Source: Zoogloea sp. (GTDB lineage Bacteria; Pseudomonadota; Gammaproteobacteria; Burkholderiales; Rhodocyclaceae). Taken from it: a stretch of 64,000 nt of DNA. The notes beneath the pieces were generated by a model. The model worked only from the letters and a program-made list of their open reading frames with translations, was not told the DNA's origin and did not search any database. Location of the stretch: contig NZ_JAKLLN010000001.1 of assembly GCF_023150065.1 (NCBI RefSeq), positions 502,545 to 566,544 of the forward strand. The letters run 5' to 3'. This document shows positions 5,082 through 57,177 of the stretch, piece after piece; the first letter of the stretch is position 1; every line of letters starts with the position of its first letter. Both the position numbers and the translations under genes were made by a program.

Positions 5082-6020
5082 TTAGCCCAGCCAGAAACTC
5101 CGGATGCCCGCTACGCCGTGGGCGCCGTGGGCTTTCGCCGTGTCCAGGTCATCGGGGGTGAGCCCGCCCAGGGCAAATACCGGCAGCGGCAGGGTGTGTG
5201 CCCGGGCTGCAAAACCGTCCCAGCCGATTCCGTCGCGTTCCGGGTGGCTGGCGGTGGGCTTGACTGCGCCGAGCAGGGCATAGTCGAGCCCCAGGGCTGC
5301 GGCCTGTTCCAGTTCGCTGCGGGTGTGGCAGGAGGCGCCGACCCATTCCAGCTCCGGGCGGGTATCGAGCGCTGCCAGCCGGCGCGCCGGCAGATGCACA
5401 CCGTCGGCACCGATGCGGACGGCGAGATCCACGTCGTCATTGATCAGGGTGATGGCGCCCGCGGCCCGGGTGCGTGCCAGCACGGCCTGGGCGAAGGCTT
5501 CCCTGTCGTTGGCTGGCAGGCCGGGTTCGCGGATCTGGACCAGGCGCAGGCCGCCGGCCAGGGCCTGGTCGAGGCGCGCCAGCTGGGTGTCGATGCCGAT
5601 CTCGGCGGCCTGGGTGATGGCCATCCGGCGGGGCAGGCGCAGGGCCTTGAGGATGGGGCCGTTGGCCGGCAGCATGGGCTCGACGCTCATGCTCGCGGCG
5701 TGCTGCCACGAGAGGGCGGCGTGCACCCGGTCGTGGATCTCGCCCCGCCAGGCCGGCACTTCGAAGAAGTGCAGATTGACGTGGGCGTGCTCGTAGAGGT
5801 GCTCCCGGGTCAGCCACGGCCAGGCTTCCAGGACTTCCATGTCGAGCTCCTCGCGAAGTTCGCGGATCAGGGCCTCGCGGGCGGTTTCGCCGGCTTCGAC
5901 CTTGCCGCCGGGGAATTCCCAGTAGCCCGGGTAGAAGGTGTCGGCGGCCCGCTGCCCGACCAGGAAGCTGCCGTCGGGCCGGGTGATGACGGCGGCGGCC
6001 ACATGCACGATCTTTCTCAT
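5082..6020 (-). CDS. Nudix hydrolase (MutT-like) fused to ThiE-like domain
   Basis: A 312-aa two-domain protein. The N-terminal half (residues 1-130) is a MutT-type Nudix hydrolase with a perfect Nudix box (G-X5-E-X7-REL-X-EEL, residues about 39-61), expected to hydrolyse oxidised nucleotides such as 8-oxo-dGTP. The C-terminal half (about 135-312) resembles thiamine-phosphate synthase: QIREPGL, INDDVDLAVRIGADGVHLP, GASCHTRSEL and FALGGLTPDDL. This fusion is widespread in beta- and gammaproteobacteria; whether the ThiE-like part is active is unknown. The ATG at 6020 overlaps the stop of the DUF815 gene (ATGA). An upstream extension of the frame has no family similarity. Confidence 0.9.
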   Translation of the reverse strand: MRKIVHVAAAVITRPDGSFLVGQRAADTFYPGYWEFPGGKVEAGETAREALIRELREELDMEVLEAWPWLTREHLYEHAHVNLHFFEVPAWRGEIHDRVHAALSWQHAASMSVEPMLPANGPILKALRLPRRMAITQAAEIGIDTQLARLDQALAGGLRLVQIREPGLPANDREAFAQAVLARTRAAGAITLINDDVDLAVRIGADGVHLPARRLAALDTRPELEWVGASCHTRSELEQAAALGLDYALLGAVKPTASHPERDGIGWDGFAARAHTLPLPVFALGGLTPDDLDTAKAHGAHGVAGIRSFWLG

Positions 6021-6880
6021 TGTTCGAAGCGTCCAGCGTAGTCCCGGGCAAACTGCCAGGCCACCCGGCCGCTGCGCGAGCCGCGCAGCAGTGCCCATTG
6101 CAGAGCCTCGCCGCGGGACGCAGGGATGGCGTCGGCGGGTACGCCGAACTCGCCCAGCCAGTGGTTCACCACCGCCAGGTATTCGTCCTGGCTGAAGGGG
6201 TAAAAGGAGATCCACAGACCGAAGCGCTCGGACAGGGAGATCTTCTCTTCAACCGCTTCGGCGGGGTGCACTTCGCCGTCCTTGTGTTTGGTGGCGGCAT
6301 TTTCGGAGAAATACTCCGGCATCAGGTGGCGGCGGTTGGAGGTGGCGTAGATCAGCACGTTGTCGGGTACCGCCGCCAGGGATCCGTCGAGGACACTCTT
6401 CAGCGCCTTGTAGGCGGGTTCGCCGTCTTCGAAGGACAGATCGTCGGTGAACAGGATGAAGCGTTCGGGGCGCCCTTCCAGCAGCTCGACGATGTCGGGA
6501 AGGTCGATCAGATCATCCTTGTCCACCTCGATCAGGCGCAGGCCTTCGGCGGCATATTCGGTCAGCAGGGCCTTGACCAGGGAGGACTTGCCGGTGCCCC
6601 GGGCGCCGGTAAGAAGCACGTTGTTGGCCCGCTTGCCGTTCAGGAACTGGCGCGTGTTGGCGACGATGCGGGCCTTCTTGTCGTCGATGTCCTGTAGGTC
6701 GGCGAGACGGATCTGGTGGGGGTGAAGCACGGCCTGCAGGCCGGCGGCGTTGCCCTTGCGGCGCCAGCGGAAGGCGCTTGAGGCCTGCCAGTCGGGTGCC
6801 TGCGGGGCCGCCGGGAGAAAATGTTCAAGGCGCTCGAGCAGTCGTTCGGCGCGGGCCAGGAAGTGGTTGAGGTCAGTCAT
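6017..6880 (-). CDS. DUF815-family AAA+ ATPase
   Basis: A 287-aa ATP-binding protein with P-loop TGARGTGKSS (residues 91-100), Walker B-like FILFTDDLSF and an arginine-rich C-terminal region. It matches DUF815 (YP_ATPase-like), whose cellular role is not established. It follows the 34-aa membrane protein and precedes the Nudix gene; both junctions are ATGA overlaps, so the three are translationally coupled. The ATG at 6880 is the only start giving the overlap and the complete N-terminal helical region. Confidence 0.88.
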   Translation of the reverse strand: MTDLNHFLARAERLLERLEHFLPAAPQAPDWQASSAFRWRRKGNAAGLQAVLHPHQIRLADLQDIDDKKARIVANTRQFLNGKRANNVLLTGARGTGKSSLVKALLTEYAAEGLRLIEVDKDDLIDLPDIVELLEGRPERFILFTDDLSFEDGEPAYKALKSVLDGSLAAVPDNVLIYATSNRRHLMPEYFSENAATKHKDGEVHPAEAVEEKISLSERFGLWISFYPFSQDEYLAVVNHWLGEFGVPADAIPASRGEALQWALLRGSRSGRVAWQFARDYAGRFEQ

Positions 6881-6981
6881 GGAGGGGCGTCCGTATCCTT
6901 GTTCTTGGGGCTGCGCAGGGCCAGGGCGACGATGATGAGCAGCACGGCGACGATGCCGAGTTCAAGGCCGATCAGCCACAT
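6877..6981 (-). CDS. 34-aa single-pass membrane protein
   Basis: A short reading frame coding for 34 residues: one hydrophobic helix (about residues 3-23, VAVLLIIVALAL) and a charged tail SPKNKDTDAPP. It is preceded by a good Shine-Dalgarno (AAAGGGA, about 7 nt before the ATG at 6981), and its stop overlaps the DUF815 start as ATGA, which together argue that it is translated. I do not recognise the family. The position suggests it may anchor or partner the DUF815 ATPase, an inference from coupling only. Confidence 0.65.
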   Translation of the reverse strand: MWLIGLELGIVAVLLIIVALALRSPKNKDTDAPP

Positions 6982-7068
6982 GGATGTTCCCTTTCGCAGG
7001 CCCGGTCCGGCAAAGCGGTGGTTATACTCGGGCGGGTATCGACAGCAAGCCAGGAGTTTACCCCATCC

Positions 7069-8313
7069 ATGTTTCCCGCCTTTTCCCGTCTGTCCGTTCT
7101 TTTTCCGGTGTTTCTTCTGGCGGCCTGCGCCGGTTCCCCCAGGCCGGTGAGCGAGCCGGCCCGTGCGCCGGTGAGCACGCCTGCTCCGGTGCCGTCTGCG
7201 CCGACTTTCCCGCCCCCTGCTGGCGCACCCGCAACAGGGGGCGCGCCTGCGCCTCAAGCCCTGGCGCGGCCCCTGCAGGCCGCCGACTGGTCGGATCTGC
7301 CGAGCTGGGCGGCCGATCCGGTGGAGGAGGCATGGCCGGCCTTTCTGGTCTCCTGCCGGGCAGTGAGCCGGCAGGCGGTGTGGCGGCCGGTGTGCGATGC
7401 GGCCAGAGCCCTGGGTGAGAACCCGGGGGGCACCGCGGCACGGCGTTTCTTCGAGGCACGTCTGAGCCCCTGGCGGGTGCTGAACGCGGACGGCACCCGG
7501 GAAGGGCTGGTCACCGGCTATTACGAGCCCCTGATCAAGGGCAGCCGCAGCCGTAGCAAGGCGTACCCGTGGCCGGTGCATGGCGTGCCGGATGATCTGC
7601 TGACCATCGACATGGGGGATGTCTTTCCGGACCTGAAGGGGCAGCGGGTGCGCGGGCGGCTGGTCGGCAACCGGGTCGTGCCCTATTACACCCGTGCCGA
7701 GGTGGCCCGCCAGGCGGAGCGCTTTGCCGGCAAGACCCTGCTCTACGCCGAGGATGCCGTCGAACTGTTCTTCCTCCAGGTGCAGGGTTCCGGGCGGGTC
7801 CAGCTGCCTGACGGGAGCGTGCTGCGGCTGGCCTATGGCGACGCCAACGGTCATCCCTATCAGTCCATCGGGCGCTGGCTGGTGGACAAGGGTGAGATGA
7901 AGCTGGAGCAGGCGTCCATGGAGGGCATCAAAAACTGGGCGCGGGCCAACCCCGGGCGTCTGCAGGAGATGCTCAACGCCAATCCGAGCTACATCTTCTT
8001 CCGTGAGGTGGCCCAGTCCGGCGGTGGTCCGGTGGGCGCCCTGGGGCAGCCGCTGACCGAAGGGCGCAGCCTGGCGGTGGATCCGCGCAGCATTCCCCTA
8101 GGGGCACCGGTGTTTCTGGCCACCACTCAACCCAACAGCCCCCAGCCCCTGCGCCGTCTCATGCTGGCCCAGGATACGGGGAGTGCGATCAAGGGCGGCG
8201 TGCGCGGGGATTTCTTCTGGGGCTTTGGCGCCGACGCGGGCGCCCTTGCCGGGCGGATGCGTCAGAAGGGGGAAATGTGGGTCTTATGGCCCAGGGATCA
8301 GGTGCCTCGATAG
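7069..8313 (+). CDS. mltA: Membrane-bound lytic murein transglycosylase A
   Basis: Cleaves the glycan strands of peptidoglycan to 1,6-anhydromuropeptides at the outer membrane. The 414-aa protein starts with a lipoprotein signal peptide with lipobox LAAC (Cys20). It then shows MltA blocks: VTGYYEPLIKGS, FLQVQGSGRVQLPDG, YGDANGHPYQSIG, and the C-terminal 3D domain with AQDTGSAIKGGVRGDFFWGFG containing the catalytic aspartate. The ATG at 7069 is chosen because the signal peptide begins there; an in-frame GTG at 7018 would bury it. A TATACT hexamer at 7023-7028 is a possible -10. Divergent from the DUF815 group. Confidence 0.95.
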   Translation: MFPAFSRLSVLFPVFLLAACAGSPRPVSEPARAPVSTPAPVPSAPTFPPPAGAPATGGAPAPQALARPLQAADWSDLPSWAADPVEEAWPAFLVSCRAVSRQAVWRPVCDAARALGENPGGTAARRFFEARLSPWRVLNADGTREGLVTGYYEPLIKGSRSRSKAYPWPVHGVPDDLLTIDMGDVFPDLKGQRVRGRLVGNRVVPYYTRAEVARQAERFAGKTLLYAEDAVELFFLQVQGSGRVQLPDGSVLRLAYGDANGHPYQSIGRWLVDKGEMKLEQASMEGIKNWARANPGRLQEMLNANPSYIFFREVAQSGGGPVGALGQPLTEGRSLAVDPRSIPLGAPVFLATTQPNSPQPLRRLMLAQDTGSAIKGGVRGDFFWGFGADAGALAGRMRQKGEMWVLWPRDQVPR

Positions 8314-49820: not shown

Positions 49821-49836
49821 GTAAGTCCTGTGTAAG
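49821..49836 (+). promoter_or_regulatory. GTAAG-N6-GTAAG box upstream of acs
   Basis: GTAAG (49821-49825) and GTAAG (49832-49836), period 11 bp. Ten bases further is TTAAAT (49847-49852), a candidate -10. The same box and spacing occur before yjcH, and an inverted box before the response regulator gene. Likely binding site of an OmpR/PhoB-type activator. Confidence 0.65.
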
Positions 49837-49995
49837 ATTGATCAACTTAAATGCCGGTCGGACCCAGGGCCGGAGCACCAGAAAGCGCCACCATAAGGCG
49901 CATGCATCCATGAGGCGTGAGCGGCCGGATTCCCCGCCAGCAAGGTTTCAGAGCTAACAACGTTGCACACTCATAACACGAGGAGAGGTGAAAAA

Positions 49996-51954
49996 ATGAC
50001 GAGCGAAACCACCCAGAAGTTCTACTATCCGTCTGAAGAGGTGGTGAAGAACGCGGCCGTGTCGGGCATGGATGCGTACAAGGCCTTGTGTGCCGAAGCC
50101 GAGAAGGATTACGAAGGCTTCTGGGGCGCCCGTGCCAAAGAGCTTCTCGACTGGCAGACCCCCTTCACCCAGGTCCTGGACGAGAGCAATGCTCCGTTCT
50201 TCAAGTGGTTTGCCGACGGCAAGCTGAACGTCTCCTACAACTGCCTTGATCGTCAGGTCAAAAATGGTCTGGGTGACAAAGTCGCCCTGATCTTCGAAGG
50301 CGACAAGGGCGACGTCACCAAGGTCACCTACTCCGATCTGCTCGGTCGCGTCAGCAAGTTTGCCAACGCGTTGAAGGCTCAGGGTGTCAAGAAGGGCGAT
50401 CGCGTCGTCATCTATCTGCCGATGTCCATCGAAGGTGTGGTGGCCATGCAGGCCTGCGCCCGTATCGGCGCCACTCACTCCATCGTGTTCGGCGGCTTCT
50501 CCGCCCAGTCCCTGGCTGACCGCATCAATGATGCCGGTGCTGTCCTGCTGATTACCTCCGACGGCCAGAACCGTGGTGGCAAGGCGCTGCCCCTCAAGTC
50601 CATCGCCGACGAAGCGCTGGCCAGCGGCTGCCCCACCATCAAGAGCGTGATCGTGGTCAAGCGCACCGGCGCCGAGACCGCCATGGTCGCGGGCCGTGAT
50701 CTCTGGGCCGACGATCTGGTTGCCCAGCAATCCGACGTCTGCGAACCGGAATGGGTCGAAGCCGAGCATCCCCTGTTCCTGCTCTACACGTCCGGCTCCA
50801 CCGGCAAGCCGAAGGGCGTGCAGCACTCCACCGGTGGCTACCTGCTGCACGCCATCCTGACCATGAAGTACACCTTCGACATCAAGCCGGATGATGTCTT
50901 CTGGTGTACCGCCGACATCGGTTGGGTGACGGGTCACACCTACATCACCTACGGCCCCCTGGCCTGCGGTGCGACCGAAGTCGTCTTCGAAGGCGTGCCC
51001 ACCTACCCGGACGCCGGCCGCTTTTGGAAGATGATCCAGGATCACAAGGTCACCGTGTTCTACACCGCCCCGACCGCGATCCGTTCGCTGATCAAGTCTG
51101 CGGACAACACCCCGGCCGTGCATCCCAAGAACTACGACATGTCCAGCCTGCGCATCCTGGGTTCGGTCGGTGAGCCGATCAATCCGGCGGCCTGGGAGTG
51201 GTACTACGAGAACGTCGGCGGCAGCCGCTGCCCGATCGTCGATACCTTCTGGCAGACCGAAACCGGTGGCCACATGATCACCCCGCTGCCCGGCGCGACC
51301 CCGCTGATCCCCGGTTCCTGCACGCTGCCCTTCCCGGGCATCCAGGCCGCCGTGGTCGACGAAACCGGCACCGAAGTGCCTTGGGGTCAAGGCGGCATCC
51401 TGGTCGTCAAGCGTCCGTGGCCGTCCATGATCCGCACCATCTGGGGCGATCCGGACCGTTTCGTGAAGTCCTACTATCCGGCCGACTTCCAGGGCAAGCT
51501 GTACTTGGCGGGCGACGGCGCTATCCGCGACAAGGACACCGGTTACTTCACCATCACCGGGCGTATCGATGACGTGCTGAACGTCTCCGGCCACCGCATG
51601 GGTACGATGGAAATCGAATCCGCCCTGGTTGCCCACGAGAAGGTTGCCGAAGCCGCCGTGGTTGGCCGTCCGGATGATCTGACTGGTGAAGCGATCGTGG
51701 CCTTCGTGGTGCTCAAGGGTGCCCGCCCCACCGGCGATGAAGCCGCCAAGGTGGTCAAGGAGCTGCAAAACTGGGTGGGTCAGGAAATTGGCCCCATTGC
51801 CAAGCCGAAGGACATCCGCTTCGGTGAGAACCTGCCCAAGACCCGTTCCGGCAAGATCATGCGCCGTCTGCTCCGTCAGCTGGCCAAGGGCGAGGAAATC
51901 ACCCAGGACACCTCGACGCTGGAAAACCCGGCAATCCTGGAACAGCTCAAGTAA
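49996..51954 (+). CDS. acs: Acetyl-CoA synthetase
   Basis: Activates acetate to acetyl-CoA through acetyl-AMP. The 652-aa protein has the AMP-binding P-loop [19 protein letters not shown], the adenylate site [11 protein letters not shown], the hinge [16 protein letters not shown] and the C-terminal [10 protein letters not shown], whose lysine (about Lys620) is the site of inactivating acetylation in this family. The ATG at 49996 follows AGGAGAGG; an upstream in-frame ATG at 49963 is less well placed. It stands alone between terminators and shares a regulatory box with the acetate-uptake operon downstream. Confidence 0.97.
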
Positions 51955-51963
51955 GAGACACAT

Positions 51964-51985
51964 GCCCCGACTTTCAGGTCGGGGC
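51964..51985 (+). terminator. Hairpin after acs
   Basis: GCCCCGAC (51964-51971) pairs with GTCGGGGC (51978-51985) around a 6-nt loop, 9 bases after acs. It lacks a T tract, so it may stabilise the mRNA end more than terminate. Confidence 0.4.
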
Positions 51986-52094
51986 GATTTGCAGCCGGCC
52001 TTTGCAGGAATGGCCGGAAATAAAAACAGCGCAAATCGAATAAAGAAAAAACAGGGGAGGAACCCGGCGCAGTCAGGCCGGGGGTAGAGGGGGA

Positions 52095-52127
52095 GAAAAA
52101 GGCGCGAAATTCGCGCCTTTTTTTCGT
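52095..52127 (+). terminator. Terminator upstream of yjcH
   Basis: AAAGGCGCGA and TCGCGCCTTT form a near-perfect stem with a 3-nt loop, flanked by A and T runs (seven T residues). It closes the acs transcript about 145 bases after the stop and could work in both directions. Confidence 0.85.
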
Positions 52128-52241
52128 CCTGATTTCTTGCTCATTCGAACGCCTTGTTTTGAATGGTTTTTTTCAGGTTTTCGGATGTTGCAATGCAGTA
52201 TTTGATTGTCCGCCATCAAGGCGGAAATTTCATTTGTCAGC

Positions 52242-52257
52242 GTAAGGTCGATGTAAG
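52242..52257 (+). promoter_or_regulatory. GTAAG-N6-GTAAG box upstream of yjcH-actP
   Basis: GTAAG (52242-52246) and GTAAG (52253-52257), 11-bp period. TAACTT (52268-52273) begins 10 bases after the box, as TTAAAT does at acs. The start codon is 78 bases beyond the box. Confidence 0.65.
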
Positions 52258-52335
52258 TGTGTGCCGGTAACTTGCCACTACCCCTAAAGGAGTCCCTTTG
52301 GCTCCTGGCAGGTTAATTCGAAGAGGAGGAGAAAT

Positions 52336-52644
52336 ATGAAAGACGACCTCGGCGACCGCATCCGGGCAAACCCGAAATACCAGGAGCTGGTCTCGAAACG
52401 CAATTCCTATGGCTGGGTCATGACCGCGCTGATGTTGATCGTTTACTACGGTTACATCCTGCTGGTGGCCTTCAACAAGGATTTCCTGGCACAGAAGACT
52501 GGTGCCGGTGTCATGTCCGTCGGGATTCCCATCGGCGTGGGTGTGATTCTGTTCACCATCATCATCACCGGTATCTACATTCGTCGTGCCAATACCGAGT
52601 TTGACGATCTGAAGGCTCAGGTCATCAAGGAGGCCACCAAGTGA
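52336..52644 (+). CDS. yjcH: DUF485 membrane protein YjcH
   Basis: A 102-aa protein with two membrane helices (about 27-46 and 60-82) and short charged ends, the DUF485 plan. It is almost always encoded just before the acetate permease ActP and is thought to assist it, though its role is undefined. GAGGAGGAG precedes the ATG. The stop overlaps the actP start region. Confidence 0.93.
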
Positions 52645-54413
52645 TGCGCAATTCCAAACTCTTGCTCGGCCTTGTGGCCATGCTGGCTTCCGGTGTCGCT
52701 CTTGCTGCCGGTGCCGACATCGGTCAGGCTGAGAAGCAGGCCACCAACTGGACGGCCATCGTCATGTTCGGCATTTTTGTTGCCGGCACGATGTTCATCA
52801 CCAAGTGGGCTGCATCCAAGACCAAGTCGGCTGCCGACTTCTATACCGCGGGCGGTGGCATCACCGGCTTCCAGAACGGCCTGGCGATTGCCGGCGACTA
52901 CATGTCCGCCGCGTCCTTCCTGGGTATTTCCGCTGCGGTGATGGCCAACGGCTACGACGGCCTGATCTTCGCAATCGGCTTCCTCGTGGGCTGGCCCATC
53001 ATCACCTTCCTGATGGCAGAGCGTCTGCGCAACCTTGGCAAGTTCACCTTCGCCGACGTGGCCGGTTACCGCTTCCAGCAGACCCCGATCCGTGCCTTTG
53101 CTGCTTCCGGCACCCTGGTCGTGGTGGCCTTCTACCTCATCGCCCAGATGGTCGGTGCCGGTCAGCTGATCAAGCTGCTCTTCGGTCTCGAGTACTGGAT
53201 GGCGGTGGTGATCGTGGGCGCGCTGATGATGGTTTACGTGCTCTTCGGCGGCATGACTGCCACCACCTGGGTGCAGATCATCAAGGCCGTGCTGCTGCTG
53301 GCCGGTGCTTCCTTCATGGCCTTCATGGTGCTCGTCAAGTTCGGCTTCAGCCCGGAAGCGATGTTCGCCAAGGCTGTCGAGATCAAGAGCGCCCTGGCTG
53401 CCAAGGATGCCAAGCTTATCGCCGATGCTGCCACCGCTGCTGCGGCTTCCGGCAAGGATGTGGCGGAAGTGACCGCCGCGATGGCCGCCAAGAAGGGTGA
53501 CTCCATCATGGGGCCGGGCTCCTTCGTGAAGGACCCGATCTCCGCCATCTCCTTCGGTATGGCGCTGATGTTCGGTACCGCCGGCCTGCCCCACATCCTG
53601 ATGCGCTTCTTCACCGTGCCGGATGCCAAGGAAGCCCGCAAGTCCGTGGGTTGGGCTACTGTCTGGATCGGCTACTTCTACATCCTGACCTTTGTCATCG
53701 GCTTCGGCGCCATCTGCTTCGTGCTGACCGATCCGACCTTCCTGGATGCCAAGGGCACCCTGAAGGGTGGCGGCAACATGGCGGCCATCCACCTGGCCAA
53801 CGCAGTGGGCGGCAATATCTTCCTCGGCTTCATCTCCGCGGTTGCCTTCGCCACCATTCTGGCCGTGGTTGCTGGTCTGACCCTGTCCGGCGCTTCCGCC
53901 GTGTCCCATGACCTGTACGCCACCGTGTTCAAGAACGGCAATGCCGATTCCGCTTCCGAGCTGCGCGTCTCCCGCATCACCACCATCGTTCTGGGTGTGA
54001 TCGCGGTGGTTCTGGGCATCGCCTTCGAGAAGCAGAACATCGCCTTCATGGTGTCCCTGGCCTTCGCCATCGCCGCGTCCGCCAACTTCCCGGTGCTCTT
54101 CATGAGCGTGCTGTGGAAGGACTGCACCACCAAGGGTGCGGTGATCGGTGGCTTCCTCGGCCTGATCAGCGCCGTGGTGATGACTGTGCTGTCGGATTCC
54201 GTGTGGGTTGCGACCCTGGGTAATCCGAAGGGCTCCGCTCCGTTCCCCTACACCTCGCCGGCCCTGTTCTCCATGACCATCGGCTTCGTGGGTATCTGGA
54301 TCTTCTCGCTGCTCGATCGCAGCCCGAACGCCCAGCAGGAGCGTGCCGACTTCGCTGCCCAGCTGATCCGGTCCGAAACCGGTATCGGCGCAGCTGGCGC
54401 GTCGGGTCACTAA
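52644..54413 (+). CDS. actP: Cation/acetate symporter ActP
   Basis: Sodium:solute symporter family permease for acetate and related short acids. The 589-aa protein has a cleavable-looking N-terminal helix (ending ALAAGAD) and about 13 membrane helices. Family segments include [21 protein letters not shown] (split over residues about 58-80) and [26 protein letters not shown]. An Ala/Lys/Asp-rich loop (about 240-290) is longer than usual. Start: the ATG at 52644 overlaps the yjcH stop by one base; the GTG at 52641, 7 bases after AGGAGG, would add one residue and is a real alternative. Confidence 0.95.
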
Positions 54414-54454
54414 GCCGTACTCCCGGTTGGGCTCCGGCCCTCCCGGAGGCAAGG

Positions 54455-54492
54455 ATAAAACCCCGGTCTGCCGAGAGGCAGCCGGGGTTTTT
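54455..54492 (+). terminator. Terminator after actP
   Basis: AAAACCCCGG and CCGGGGTTTTT form the outer stem, with CTGCC-GAGA-GGCAG inside. It is a strong rho-independent terminator about 45 bases after actP. Confidence 0.9.
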
Positions 54493-54822
54493 CAATGGCT
54501 GGCCGGAATGGTCTGCAGGGTGTCGTGCGTCATGCCGCGTTGACGCCAAGGAGCTTGCGGCAGGCTTGCACGAAGCCTGGCCGGCCCTGTGCTAGACTCG
54601 AACGGAATTTGTAATGAGAGTTTGCGCCGCTTGCGCCCGGGGTGCCCATGGGAATGCCGGGCACGGACGTTTGCAGCTATCGGTTTGGGGTTTGCCGAAA
54701 AAGACGGCGGGGGATGATCCGTCGGGCGGACCAACCCCCGAGGCGGTGTCGCAGCTTGCGCAGCGAACGTGCCCCCAAGACCGAGTAAAAGGAGAACAGC
54801 GGGTTGACTGTGCCGTATCCCG

Positions 54823-54838
54823 CTTACTTCAAACTTAC
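54823..54838 (-). promoter_or_regulatory. Inverted GTAAG-N6-GTAAG box before the response regulator
   Basis: CTTAC (54823-54827) and CTTAC (54834-54838), that is GTAAG-N6-GTAAG on the minus strand, ending 24 bases before the ATG at 54863. It lies downstream of or across a possible promoter (TTGACT at 54804), a position that would suit autorepression. Confidence 0.6.
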
Positions 54839-54862: not shown

Positions 54863-55537
54863 ATGCGGATCCTGTTGGCCGAAGACGACCTGATTATTGC
54901 CGACGGCCTGTGCCGTGCGCTGAAGAAAGCCGGCTATGCGGTGGACCATGTCCCCAATGGTGCCGATGCCGATGCTGCTCTGCTGGTTCAGACCTTCGAC
55001 CTCCTCATTCTGGATCTGGGGCTTCCCAAACTGGTCGGTATCGAAGTCCTGCGGCGCCTGCGCTCCCGCAAGTGCGCCATGCCCGTGCTCATCCTCACTG
55101 CTCAGGATGGCATCGAGGATCGGGTGCGTGGCCTGGATGCGGGGGCTGACGACTATCTGACCAAGCCCTTTGCGCTGCCCGAACTGGAGGCGCGCGTCCG
55201 TGCCCTGACCCGACGCGGAACCGGCCAGGCGAGATGCATCGAATATGCCCGGCTGGCTTATGATCAGGCGGACAGGGTCGTCAAGATTGACGGTCAGGTC
55301 GTCGAACTGTCTGCGCGTGAAGTCGGGTTGCTCGAGGTGCTGCTGCTGCGTGCAGGGCGTCTGGTGAGCAAGGAGCAACTGGTCGATCACCTGTGTGGCT
55401 GGGGTGAGGAAGTCTCCAACAATGCCATCGAAGTGTATGTGCATCGCCTGCGCAAGAAACTCGAGCAAAGCGGTGTGCAGATCGTGACCGTAAGAGGGCT
55501 GGGTTACTGCCTGGAAAAGCCTGATGTGGTCGCCTAG
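54863..55537 (+). CDS. OmpR-family response regulator, TctD-like
   Basis: A 224-aa regulator: receiver domain with Asp8-Asp9, phosphoacceptor Asp51, Thr78 and Lys100, then a winged-helix DNA-binding domain (about 128-222; ELSAREVGLLEVLLLRAGRLVSKEQL, NAIEVYVHRLRKKL). It resembles TctD, the regulator of tricarboxylate uptake, in pairing with a TctE-type kinase. Its location after the acetate genes and the repeated GTAAG boxes make it the likely regulator of acs and yjcH-actP (inference). The ATG at 54863 starts the receiver fold. The kinase gene overlaps its end by 14 bases. Confidence 0.9.
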   Translation: MRILLAEDDLIIADGLCRALKKAGYAVDHVPNGADADAALLVQTFDLLILDLGLPKLVGIEVLRRLRSRKCAMPVLILTAQDGIEDRVRGLDAGADDYLTKPFALPELEARVRALTRRGTGQARCIEYARLAYDQADRVVKIDGQVVELSAREVGLLEVLLLRAGRLVSKEQLVDHLCGWGEEVSNNAIEVYVHRLRKKLEQSGVQIVTVRGLGYCLEKPDVVA

Positions 55538-57020
55538 ATGGCGTAAGGTGGCAGAAGAGGATGCCACTGATGGCAAGGCCTTCAACTCCCTGTTTGGGGA
55601 GATTCTCGACTGGATGCTGGCCCCCCTGCTGTTTCTGTGGCCAATTTCCATCATCGTCACCCACAACGTCGCCAACAGCATCGCCAACCAGCCCTACGAC
55701 CAGGCCCTGGCGGTTAACGTGCGGGCCATCGCCCGTCTGGTCAAGCTCGAGAACGGGCAGGCCCGGGTGAACTTTCCTGCGCCGGCGCGCCTGATCCTGC
55801 GGGCTGACGAGGACGACACCGTGTATTACCAGGTGCTGGGCTTCAAGGGCGAGCTGCTGGCCGGTGACAAGGATATTCCCCCGATCGCCGCGCCGGAGAA
55901 TGTGGTTCCCGACCTCGTGATGTTTCGCGATGAATCCATTGCAGGTGAAGAAGTGCGGGTGGCCTATCAGTTCGTACAGCCCATGGATAGCGTCCCTTCC
56001 AGGCTCGTGCTGCTCCAGGTCGCCGAAACGCGCAACAAGCGCAGCACCCTTGCCTCCCGGGTGGTGACGGGTGTGCTTCTGCCCCAGTTCGCCATCATCC
56101 CGATCGCGGTCATCCTGGTCTGGCTCGGCCTGTCCCGCGGCATCGCGCCCCTGAACCAGCTCCAGCGCCTCATCCGTCGCCGCCGCCCTTCCGATTTGTC
56201 GCCCATCTCGGTATCGGGGGTTCCGGAGGAGGTCCGGCCGCTGATCATTGCCTTCAACGAGATGATGGCCCGCCTGGAGGAGAATCTTCAGGCTCAGCAA
56301 CGTTTCATCGCCGATGCGGCGCACCAGATGCGGACCCCGTTGACCGGCCTGCGCATGCAGACAGATCTCGCCCTGATGGAAACCGACCCCGCCCAGGTGC
56401 ATCGGTCCCTGGTACATATCTCCCAGAGTGCGGAGCGAGCCGGGCATCTGATCAATCAGCTGCTCTCCCTTGCCCGGGCTGAAGCCAGTTACGAGAAAAT
56501 CTATGCGGTGGAGCGGGTGGATCTGGAGGTGCTGCTGCGGGCAATGCTGAGTGATTTCTTCCCGCGCGCCAGACAGAAGAACATTGATTTTGGCCTGGAA
56601 ACCACCGGCGAGCCGCTGATGATTGACGGCAACCCGGTTCTGCTTGGCGAACTGGTCAAGAATCTGATCGACAACGCGATCAAGTACACCCCTGGCGGGG
56701 GCTGCGTGACGGTTCGTACCATCGCCACGGAGCGCGCCATCCTGGAAGTGGAAGACACGGGTATTGGCGTGCCGGATGTGGACCGGGAGCGGGTTTTCGA
56801 GCGTTTCTATCGTGTGCTTGGAAGCACCGAAAGCGGTTCCGGCCTTGGCCTACCCATTGTCCGGGAGATTGCGGAGCTTCATCGCGCCAAGGTCAGCCTC
56901 ATACCCAATCCCAGCGGCAAGGGTACTATCGCCCAGGTTGTCTTTCCGCGCAGCCGTGCGGGTGAGGACACCTTGACGCCTGAACCCCGTGCCCTCGCAG
57001 AACAGTTTCCCCCTGCATGA
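55524..57020 (+). CDS. Sensor histidine kinase, TctE-like
   Basis: A 498-aa membrane kinase: helix 1 (about 29-47), a periplasmic 2CSK_N/TctE-type domain (about 50-180), helix 2 (about 183-203), a HAMP-like linker, the dimerisation domain with phosphoacceptor His267 (FIADAAHQMRTPLTG), and the ATPase domain with N box (ELVKNLIDNAIKYT), G1 (EDTGIGV) and G2 (GSGLGLPIV). The periplasmic domain of this family senses organic acids or a binding protein; acetate or a relative is a reasonable guess. Partner of the preceding regulator. Confidence 0.9.
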   Translation: MWSPRWRKVAEEDATDGKAFNSLFGEILDWMLAPLLFLWPISIIVTHNVANSIANQPYDQALAVNVRAIARLVKLENGQARVNFPAPARLILRADEDDTVYYQVLGFKGELLAGDKDIPPIAAPENVVPDLVMFRDESIAGEEVRVAYQFVQPMDSVPSRLVLLQVAETRNKRSTLASRVVTGVLLPQFAIIPIAVILVWLGLSRGIAPLNQLQRLIRRRRPSDLSPISVSGVPEEVRPLIIAFNEMMARLEENLQAQQRFIADAAHQMRTPLTGLRMQTDLALMETDPAQVHRSLVHISQSAERAGHLINQLLSLARAEASYEKIYAVERVDLEVLLRAMLSDFFPRARQKNIDFGLETTGEPLMIDGNPVLLGELVKNLIDNAIKYTPGGGCVTVRTIATERAILEVEDTGIGVPDVDRERVFERFYRVLGSTESGSGLGLPIVREIAELHRAKVSLIPNPSGKGTIAQVVFPRSRAGEDTLTPEPRALAEQFPPA

Positions 57021-57101: not shown

Positions 57102-57177
57102 GGCCAGTTAGCTCAGTTGGTAGAGCAGCGGATTGAAAATCCGCGTGTCCGTGGTTCGATTCCGCGACTGGCCACCA
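57102..57177 (+). tRNA. tRNA-Phe (anticodon GAA)
   Basis: A 76-nt tRNA with acceptor stem GGCCAGT/ACTGGCC, D-arm TAGCTCAGTTGGTAGAGCA, anticodon GAA at 57135-57137 in loop TTGAAAA, T-arm GGTTCGATTCC and an encoded 3' CCA. All invariant positions are present. Confidence 0.98.

Follow-up and report, generated by a model that had tools for sequence, protein, structure and literature searches.

A putative acetate regulon in Zoogloea sp. marked by a shared GTAAG-N6-GTAAG box, with a predicted divergent small RNA

The window analysed here, a stretch of 64,000 nucleotides from Zoogloea sp. (Rhodocyclaceae), carries genes of acetate use next to a two-component system: acs, the pair yjcH-actP, and the genes of an OmpR-family response regulator and a histidine kinase (Table 1). 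Three copies of a direct repeat, GTAAG-N6-GTAAG (CTTAC-N6-CTTAC on the opposite strand), stand upstream of acs, of yjcH-actP and of the regulator gene, and beyond the third copy, on the minus strand, we predict a small RNA divergent from the regulator. Acetate use is central to Rhodocyclaceae-type bacteria, a family including Azoarcus, Thauera and the phosphorus-removing Accumulibacter; in the open-licence literature we found neither a described regulator of acetate use in these bacteria nor a report of the box, the regulator or the RNA. What emerges is a candidate regulator with its likely site, two promoters on which it would act, and a structured small RNA that has no match in Rfam; this divergent RNA seems to us the more interesting find.

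Table 1 Features of the acetate block and the adjoining two-component system (positions within the window)
Feature	Position	Strand	Basis or remark
Box 1, GTAAGTCCTGTGTAAG, acs promoter	49821..49836	+	pattern search, family comparison
-10 element TTAAAT, 10 nt past box 1	49847..49852	+	
acs, acetate-CoA ligase	49996..51954	+	PF00501, TIGR02188 above cutoff; start taken as the ATG at 49996
Box 2, GTAAGGTCGATGTAAG, yjcH-actP promoter	52242..52257	+	pattern search, family comparison
-10 element TAACTT, 10 nt past box 2	52268..52273	+	
yjcH, DUF485 protein	52336..52644	+	PF04341
actP, cation/acetate symporter	52641..54413	+	PF00474, NF006903 above cutoff
Predicted small RNA, ~104 nt	54697..54800	-	anti-Shine-Dalgarno 5' tail, closing stem, hairpin, terminator hairpin, U-run
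Predicted -10 position of the small RNA promoter	54807..54812	-	CACAGT in the window, TANNNT in 34/40 loci
Box 3, GTAAGTTTGAAGTAAG, promoter box of the predicted small RNA	54823..54838	-	pattern search, family comparison
OmpR-family response regulator (TctD/PmrA-like), proposed box binder	54863..55537	+	PF00072, PF00486
Histidine kinase with 2CSK_N, proposed partner	55524..57020	+	PF08521, PF00512, PF02518

The three boxes given in the initial annotation were recovered at the same coordinates and strands. The window holds no other exact copy, and none was added when one mismatch was allowed. That chance would supply far less than one copy was borne out by 100 shuffles of the window, which yielded 0.01 copies on average and never three. 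The whole assembly (5,245,242 bases in 251 contigs, 97.85% complete) contains exactly these three copies and no others. The assembly has three copies of the pattern read backwards as well, and the genome-wide count alone is therefore unremarkable; the true signal is that all three boxes fall into one 5-kb block, each of them intergenic, as had been claimed. When all 5-mer dyads with spacings of 0-12 were counted in three sets of promoter regions from related genomes, GTAAG-N6-GTAAG ranked first in every set, upstream of acs (74 of 90 regions), of yjcH (16 of 19) and of the regulator (44 of 61 loci), while dyads other than shifted copies of the box reached at most 6, 4 and 6 occurrences, respectively.

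Comparison across the family supports the box as a mark of the acs and yjcH-actP promoters, in the position of an OmpR/PhoB-type site. The -10-like hexamers that had been noticed in the window do begin 10 bases past their boxes, and the same geometry recurs in the relatives: TNNAAT stands exactly 10 nt past the box in 69 of 74 acs promoters, and in 16 of 16 yjcH promoters, where every box found points at the gene, TANNNT takes that place. The two hexamers share the spacing, A occupying the second position of the acs element in just 3 of the 74 promoters. A place directly before the -10 element, over the -35 region, is the one from which activators of the OmpR/PhoB type work; the corresponding form, a direct repeat of ~11-bp period over the -35 region, is present here 10 nt before the -10 element, and its binding is predicted. 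In a sample of the order, an acs box followed by TNNAAT was found in 9 of 9 family genomes and in 5 of 291 others, one of these five non-family matches lying ~330 nt upstream of an acs gene. Several relatives (for example L145 and L164) also carry GCTGCAGC-like repeats immediately upstream of the acs box, which we take to resemble PhaR sites.

The regulator combines a receiver domain with a Trans_reg_C winged helix, both above cutoff, and the kinase contains 2CSK_N, HisKA and HATPase_c domains, with HAMP below cutoff; a tRNA-Phe (GAA) gene follows immediately downstream of the kinase gene (57102-57177). TctD, PmrA and QseB are the nearest NCBIfam models of the regulator, which with 231.5 bits stays below the cutoff of 337 of the TctD equivalog (NF012023), and its best matches in the PDB are BasR/PmrA. 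Orthologues were searched for in 150 family genomes, 112 of which gave a match at E ~1e-85 or better (a cut set by ourselves); G064 and G148, whose homologues reach 56-58%, were scored as lacking the regulator. The neighbourhood comparison comprised 60 regions, and box and RNA counts refer to 61 regulator loci. An exact plus-strand box lies within 300 nt upstream of acs in 67 of 69 regulator-bearing family genomes, compared with 7 of the 21 scored without it (Fisher p ~1e-9, ancestry ignored). Contrasts within genera agree: in g7 (G006 versus G071), g12 (G074 versus G011 and G122), g18 (G017 versus G124) and g23 (G129 versus G022), some species possess regulator and box and others neither. The presence of the acs box tracks that of the regulator, and we regard it as highly likely that this regulator uses the box to act on acs and actP; that the acetate regulon is real seems very likely from the same comparisons.

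Several observations weigh against this assignment. The seven box-keeping genomes without a detected regulator (G012, G043, G068, G077, G084, G119 and G128) are 79-97% complete, and some of them may represent assembly gaps; two of the 69 genomes with the regulator lack the exact acs box (one mismatch in G040, no box in G045); and regulator homologues of Burkholderiaceae type (66-72% identity) showed neither box nor RNA in the stretches examined. Among the matches listed, these homologues (L320-L338) have a kinase adjoining. The box could consequently belong to a different regulator, with the neighbouring pair linked to it by position only, a view favoured by the box-keepers, by the missing boxes near related regulators outside the family and by the fact that box binding by the neighbour is itself a prediction; we nevertheless hold it to be quite unlikely in view of the co-occurrence over 90 acs regions and inside four genera, the clustering of boxes around the neighbouring regulator and the resemblance of the half-site to that of PmrA, the nearest solved relative.

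The third box, whose end lies 24 bases short of the regulator ATG, had been interpreted as a site through which the regulator controls itself. Family comparison speaks for another partner. All 44 exact boxes upstream of regulator genes point away from the regulator and none toward it, with 8-155 nt between the end of the box and the ATG. In the direction of the RNA, 34 of the 40 loci having both box and RNA show TANNNT at spacing 10 and none shows it at the 17 other spacings tried, whereas toward the regulator it stands at spacing 10 in 0 of 27 testable loci. The exact box accompanies 40 of 42 regulator loci with the RNA versus 4 of 19 without it, and RNA copies may carry a box along: in L498 the RNA lies ~4.8 kb from the regulator with its own exact box, and in L500 a second copy, again with an exact box, lies beside yjcH. 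On these grounds we are strongly confident that box 3 belongs to the promoter of a conserved small RNA divergent from the regulator gene, although some features fit this less well: the hexamer of the window (CACAGT) is weak, the -10 element of the RNA promoter starts with CA instead of TA in all four members of the window genus (6 of 40 loci overall), and a distant second RNA copy in L100 lacks an exact box. An operator of the regulator gene, activating or blocking its promoter, would suit the short distance to the ATG, and a promoter located in between could be affected; boxes that without exception face away, no TANNNT toward the regulator and a box absent from 15 of 19 RNA-less loci make this unlikely, and self-control through box 3 is probably wrong, even if a side effect of the box on the regulator could occur. 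In general, before a box near a regulator gene is taken to indicate autoregulation, its direction and its -10 element should be checked.

Related arrangements were seen beside other regulator genes. L498 has a further box ~180 nt before the regulator, facing away from it and toward a remote ActP homologue, and in L117 the regulator box (8199-8214; cassette 6013-8090) faces a divergent DUF4212-SSS symporter in place of the RNA. Three GTAAG half-sites in an 11-nt register stand beside the regulator-kinase pair in L079 (5773-5799), L087 (6624-6650) and L088 (10277-10303), where they precede an SSS symporter ~45% identical to ActP; in L088, the only one of the three for which the family assignment was made, this symporter comes after a DUF485 gene.

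The RNA itself begins with a near-invariant block, GCTGTTCTCC, starting 6-7 nt past the -10 element, and for 40 of the 41 sequences that have an exact box the distance from the box start to the conserved 5' end is 38-39 nt. Forty RNA sequences with lengths of 84-116 nt align. Folded singly, most of them show a 5' tail left free, a closing stem (missing from some folds), a variable hairpin, a terminator hairpin and a U-run; the unpaired 5' end, GCUGUUCUCCUUUUACU, is of anti-Shine-Dalgarno type. A first covariance model (R1), built on the unaided RNAalifold structure, kept the terminator stem only and was dropped; its successor (R2) uses a structure drawn by hand from the single-sequence folds. 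In a model-fitted alignment of 56 sequences both-sided changes occur in 13 of 17 pairs. This alignment was fitted to the drawn structure, which weakens the pair counts as support for it, and controls by shuffling and sliding are therefore given: the covariation score of 0.483 compares with 0.251 in shuffled alignments, none of the 500 reaching it, and sliding the structure gave no more than 0.126. The pairs favour the minus strand, with 89 G-U versus 20 A-C cells. A plus-strand leader or attenuator of the regulator mRNA, as which the element might be read given that almost every carrier has it directly in front of the regulator gene, was rejected, since these G-U pairs would mismatch on the plus strand and the U-run lies on the minus strand; with the -10 element also on the minus strand and RNA copies existing away from the regulator, we consider such a leader scarcely credible.

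The RNA model matches 74 of the 150 family genomes, with one copy in 71 of the 74. In the sample of the order it matches 7 of 9 family genomes and 1 of 291 others, the sole non-family carrier being a genome with 6% contamination in which the RNA lies beside an 83% regulator; among the matches listed, one carrier (L319) is a metagenome-assembled genome of Azovibrio, its box having one mismatch. Neither the window copy of the RNA nor those of ten relatives reached the gathering score of any Rfam family, RF02278 included, and the RNA terminator was absent from the output of a simple terminator scan of the window. An own promoter, a conserved structure and an intrinsic terminator, by which base-pairing small RNAs are recognised, are present as sequence features, and the element looks like a conserved trans-acting RNA of this kind.

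Possible targets were sought in the 150 family genomes with AAAGGAGAACAGC, the complement of the first 13 nt of the RNA, the RNA gene being excluded. In the 75 genomes with the RNA (the 74 above and G042, picked up later) there were 31 matches, of which 23 lie 0-3 nt ahead of a start codon, versus 11 matches, 8 at a start, in the 75 genomes without it; genomes with a start-codon match numbered 20 of 75 and 8 of 75, respectively (p 0.02), and a permuted 13-mer matched 10 times in the 150 genomes. Fifteen of the 23 start sites in RNA carriers belong to genes for 3-hydroxyacyl-CoA dehydrogenase (5), enoyl-CoA hydratase (2), FadE-type acyl-CoA dehydrogenase (2), salicylyl-CoA 5-hydroxylase-like proteins (2), BadH (2), PaaY (1) and HpaD (1), one representative of each family having been assigned and the remainder by similarity. 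The other eight comprise phosphoribulokinase and, by eye, GNAT, protease, PepSY-like (2), PAS, cyanase-like and DsbA-like proteins, and the eight start sites in genomes without the RNA were judged by eye to be pirin-like (3), GNAT, one SDR and three others. In the Zoogloea genome itself, the BadH gene (above the NCBIfam cutoff) offers 15 perfectly complementary bases ending at the start codon, and glyoxylate carboligase 11 complementary bases.

The predicted targets lean toward acyl-CoA and aromatic catabolism, which is suggestive only. The evidence for them is thin, shared ancestry inflating the counts of 23 and 8 start sites. Of 41 loci of FadB-type genes that were tried (one without a start), at least 10 complementary bases were found in 9 of 32 with the RNA versus 2 of 8 without it, no clear difference, and a search for AAGGAGAACA-N0-6-ATG in 41 genomes yielded no gene family in more than three genomes among the at most 71 listed sites examined. 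As many sites share ancestry and the FadB-type genes show no clear difference, these targets should be regarded as a lead and not as proof, and repression of acyl-CoA and aromatic catabolism by the RNA appears to us possible, though somewhat less probable than its contrary.

From the boxes, the promoter geometry, the co-occurrence with the regulator and the covarying RNA with its own box, all of them established by comparing sequences, we infer the following course. The 2CSK_N kinase would drive the adjoining TctD/PmrA-like regulator in response to a signal that probably is acetate or a related carboxylate; a dimer of the regulator would bind the direct repeat over the -35 region and activate three promoters, those of acs, of yjcH-actP and of the divergent small RNA, so that a single signal would couple acetate uptake and activation with the transcription of a trans-acting RNA. 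The free anti-Shine-Dalgarno 5' end most likely would keep mRNAs whose ribosome site matches it from being translated, those of acyl-CoA and aromatic catabolism being the preferred candidates. Taken as a regulator-kinase pair, three box promoters and a divergent small RNA, this explanation seems likely to us. Far more tentative, and in our estimate rather on the doubtful side, is the proposal that one acetate-responsive system runs both arms, activating acetate use while its RNA silences acyl-CoA, fatty-acid and aromatic pathways; if true, it would mean that acetate preference in Rhodocyclaceae-type bacteria is set post-transcriptionally.

The initial annotation had expected a wiring unlike that of CrbS/CrbR (MxtR/ErdR), which controls acs and actP in Vibrio and Pseudomonas, and this expectation is supported, the regulator being of OmpR type and the kinase carrying 2CSK_N. 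CrbR is a LuxR-type regulator, in contrast to the protein with Trans_reg_C described here. Common to both is two-component control of acetate-use genes, acs included, which CrbS/CrbR is reported to turn on (PMC5715377, PMC5436829, PMC8402216). CrbS is described there as a hybrid kinase that carries a fused SLC5 symporter domain, whereas the kinase here consists of 2CSK_N, HisKA and HATPase_c; a different box and the additional small RNA further separate the two systems. With TctD, PmrA and QseB the regulator shares the OmpR-family DNA-binding domain, and its half-site CTTAC is close to the CTTAA of PmrA, whose site is given as a YTTAAK direct repeat (PMC10927774); it differs from these relatives by scores far below the equivalog cutoffs, by the half-site CTTAC and by acetate genes as targets. 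Among RNAs, S17/bdhR1 (RF02278) of Betaproteobacteria adjoins coq7, yields S17S by processing and has candidate targets including an acyl-CoA dehydrogenase family gene, a fatty acid ligase and PaaN (PMC11722255). Both are short conserved RNAs with a C/U-rich free region and similar classes of candidate target; they are set apart by locus and by Rfam, RF02278 giving no match here. CbrAB-CrcZ of Pseudomonas likewise ties a two-component system to small RNAs and carbon choice; CrcZ, however, titrates Hfq/Crc through A-rich repeats, whereas the RNA predicted here carries a single conserved anti-Shine-Dalgarno tail and would be of the base-pairing type.

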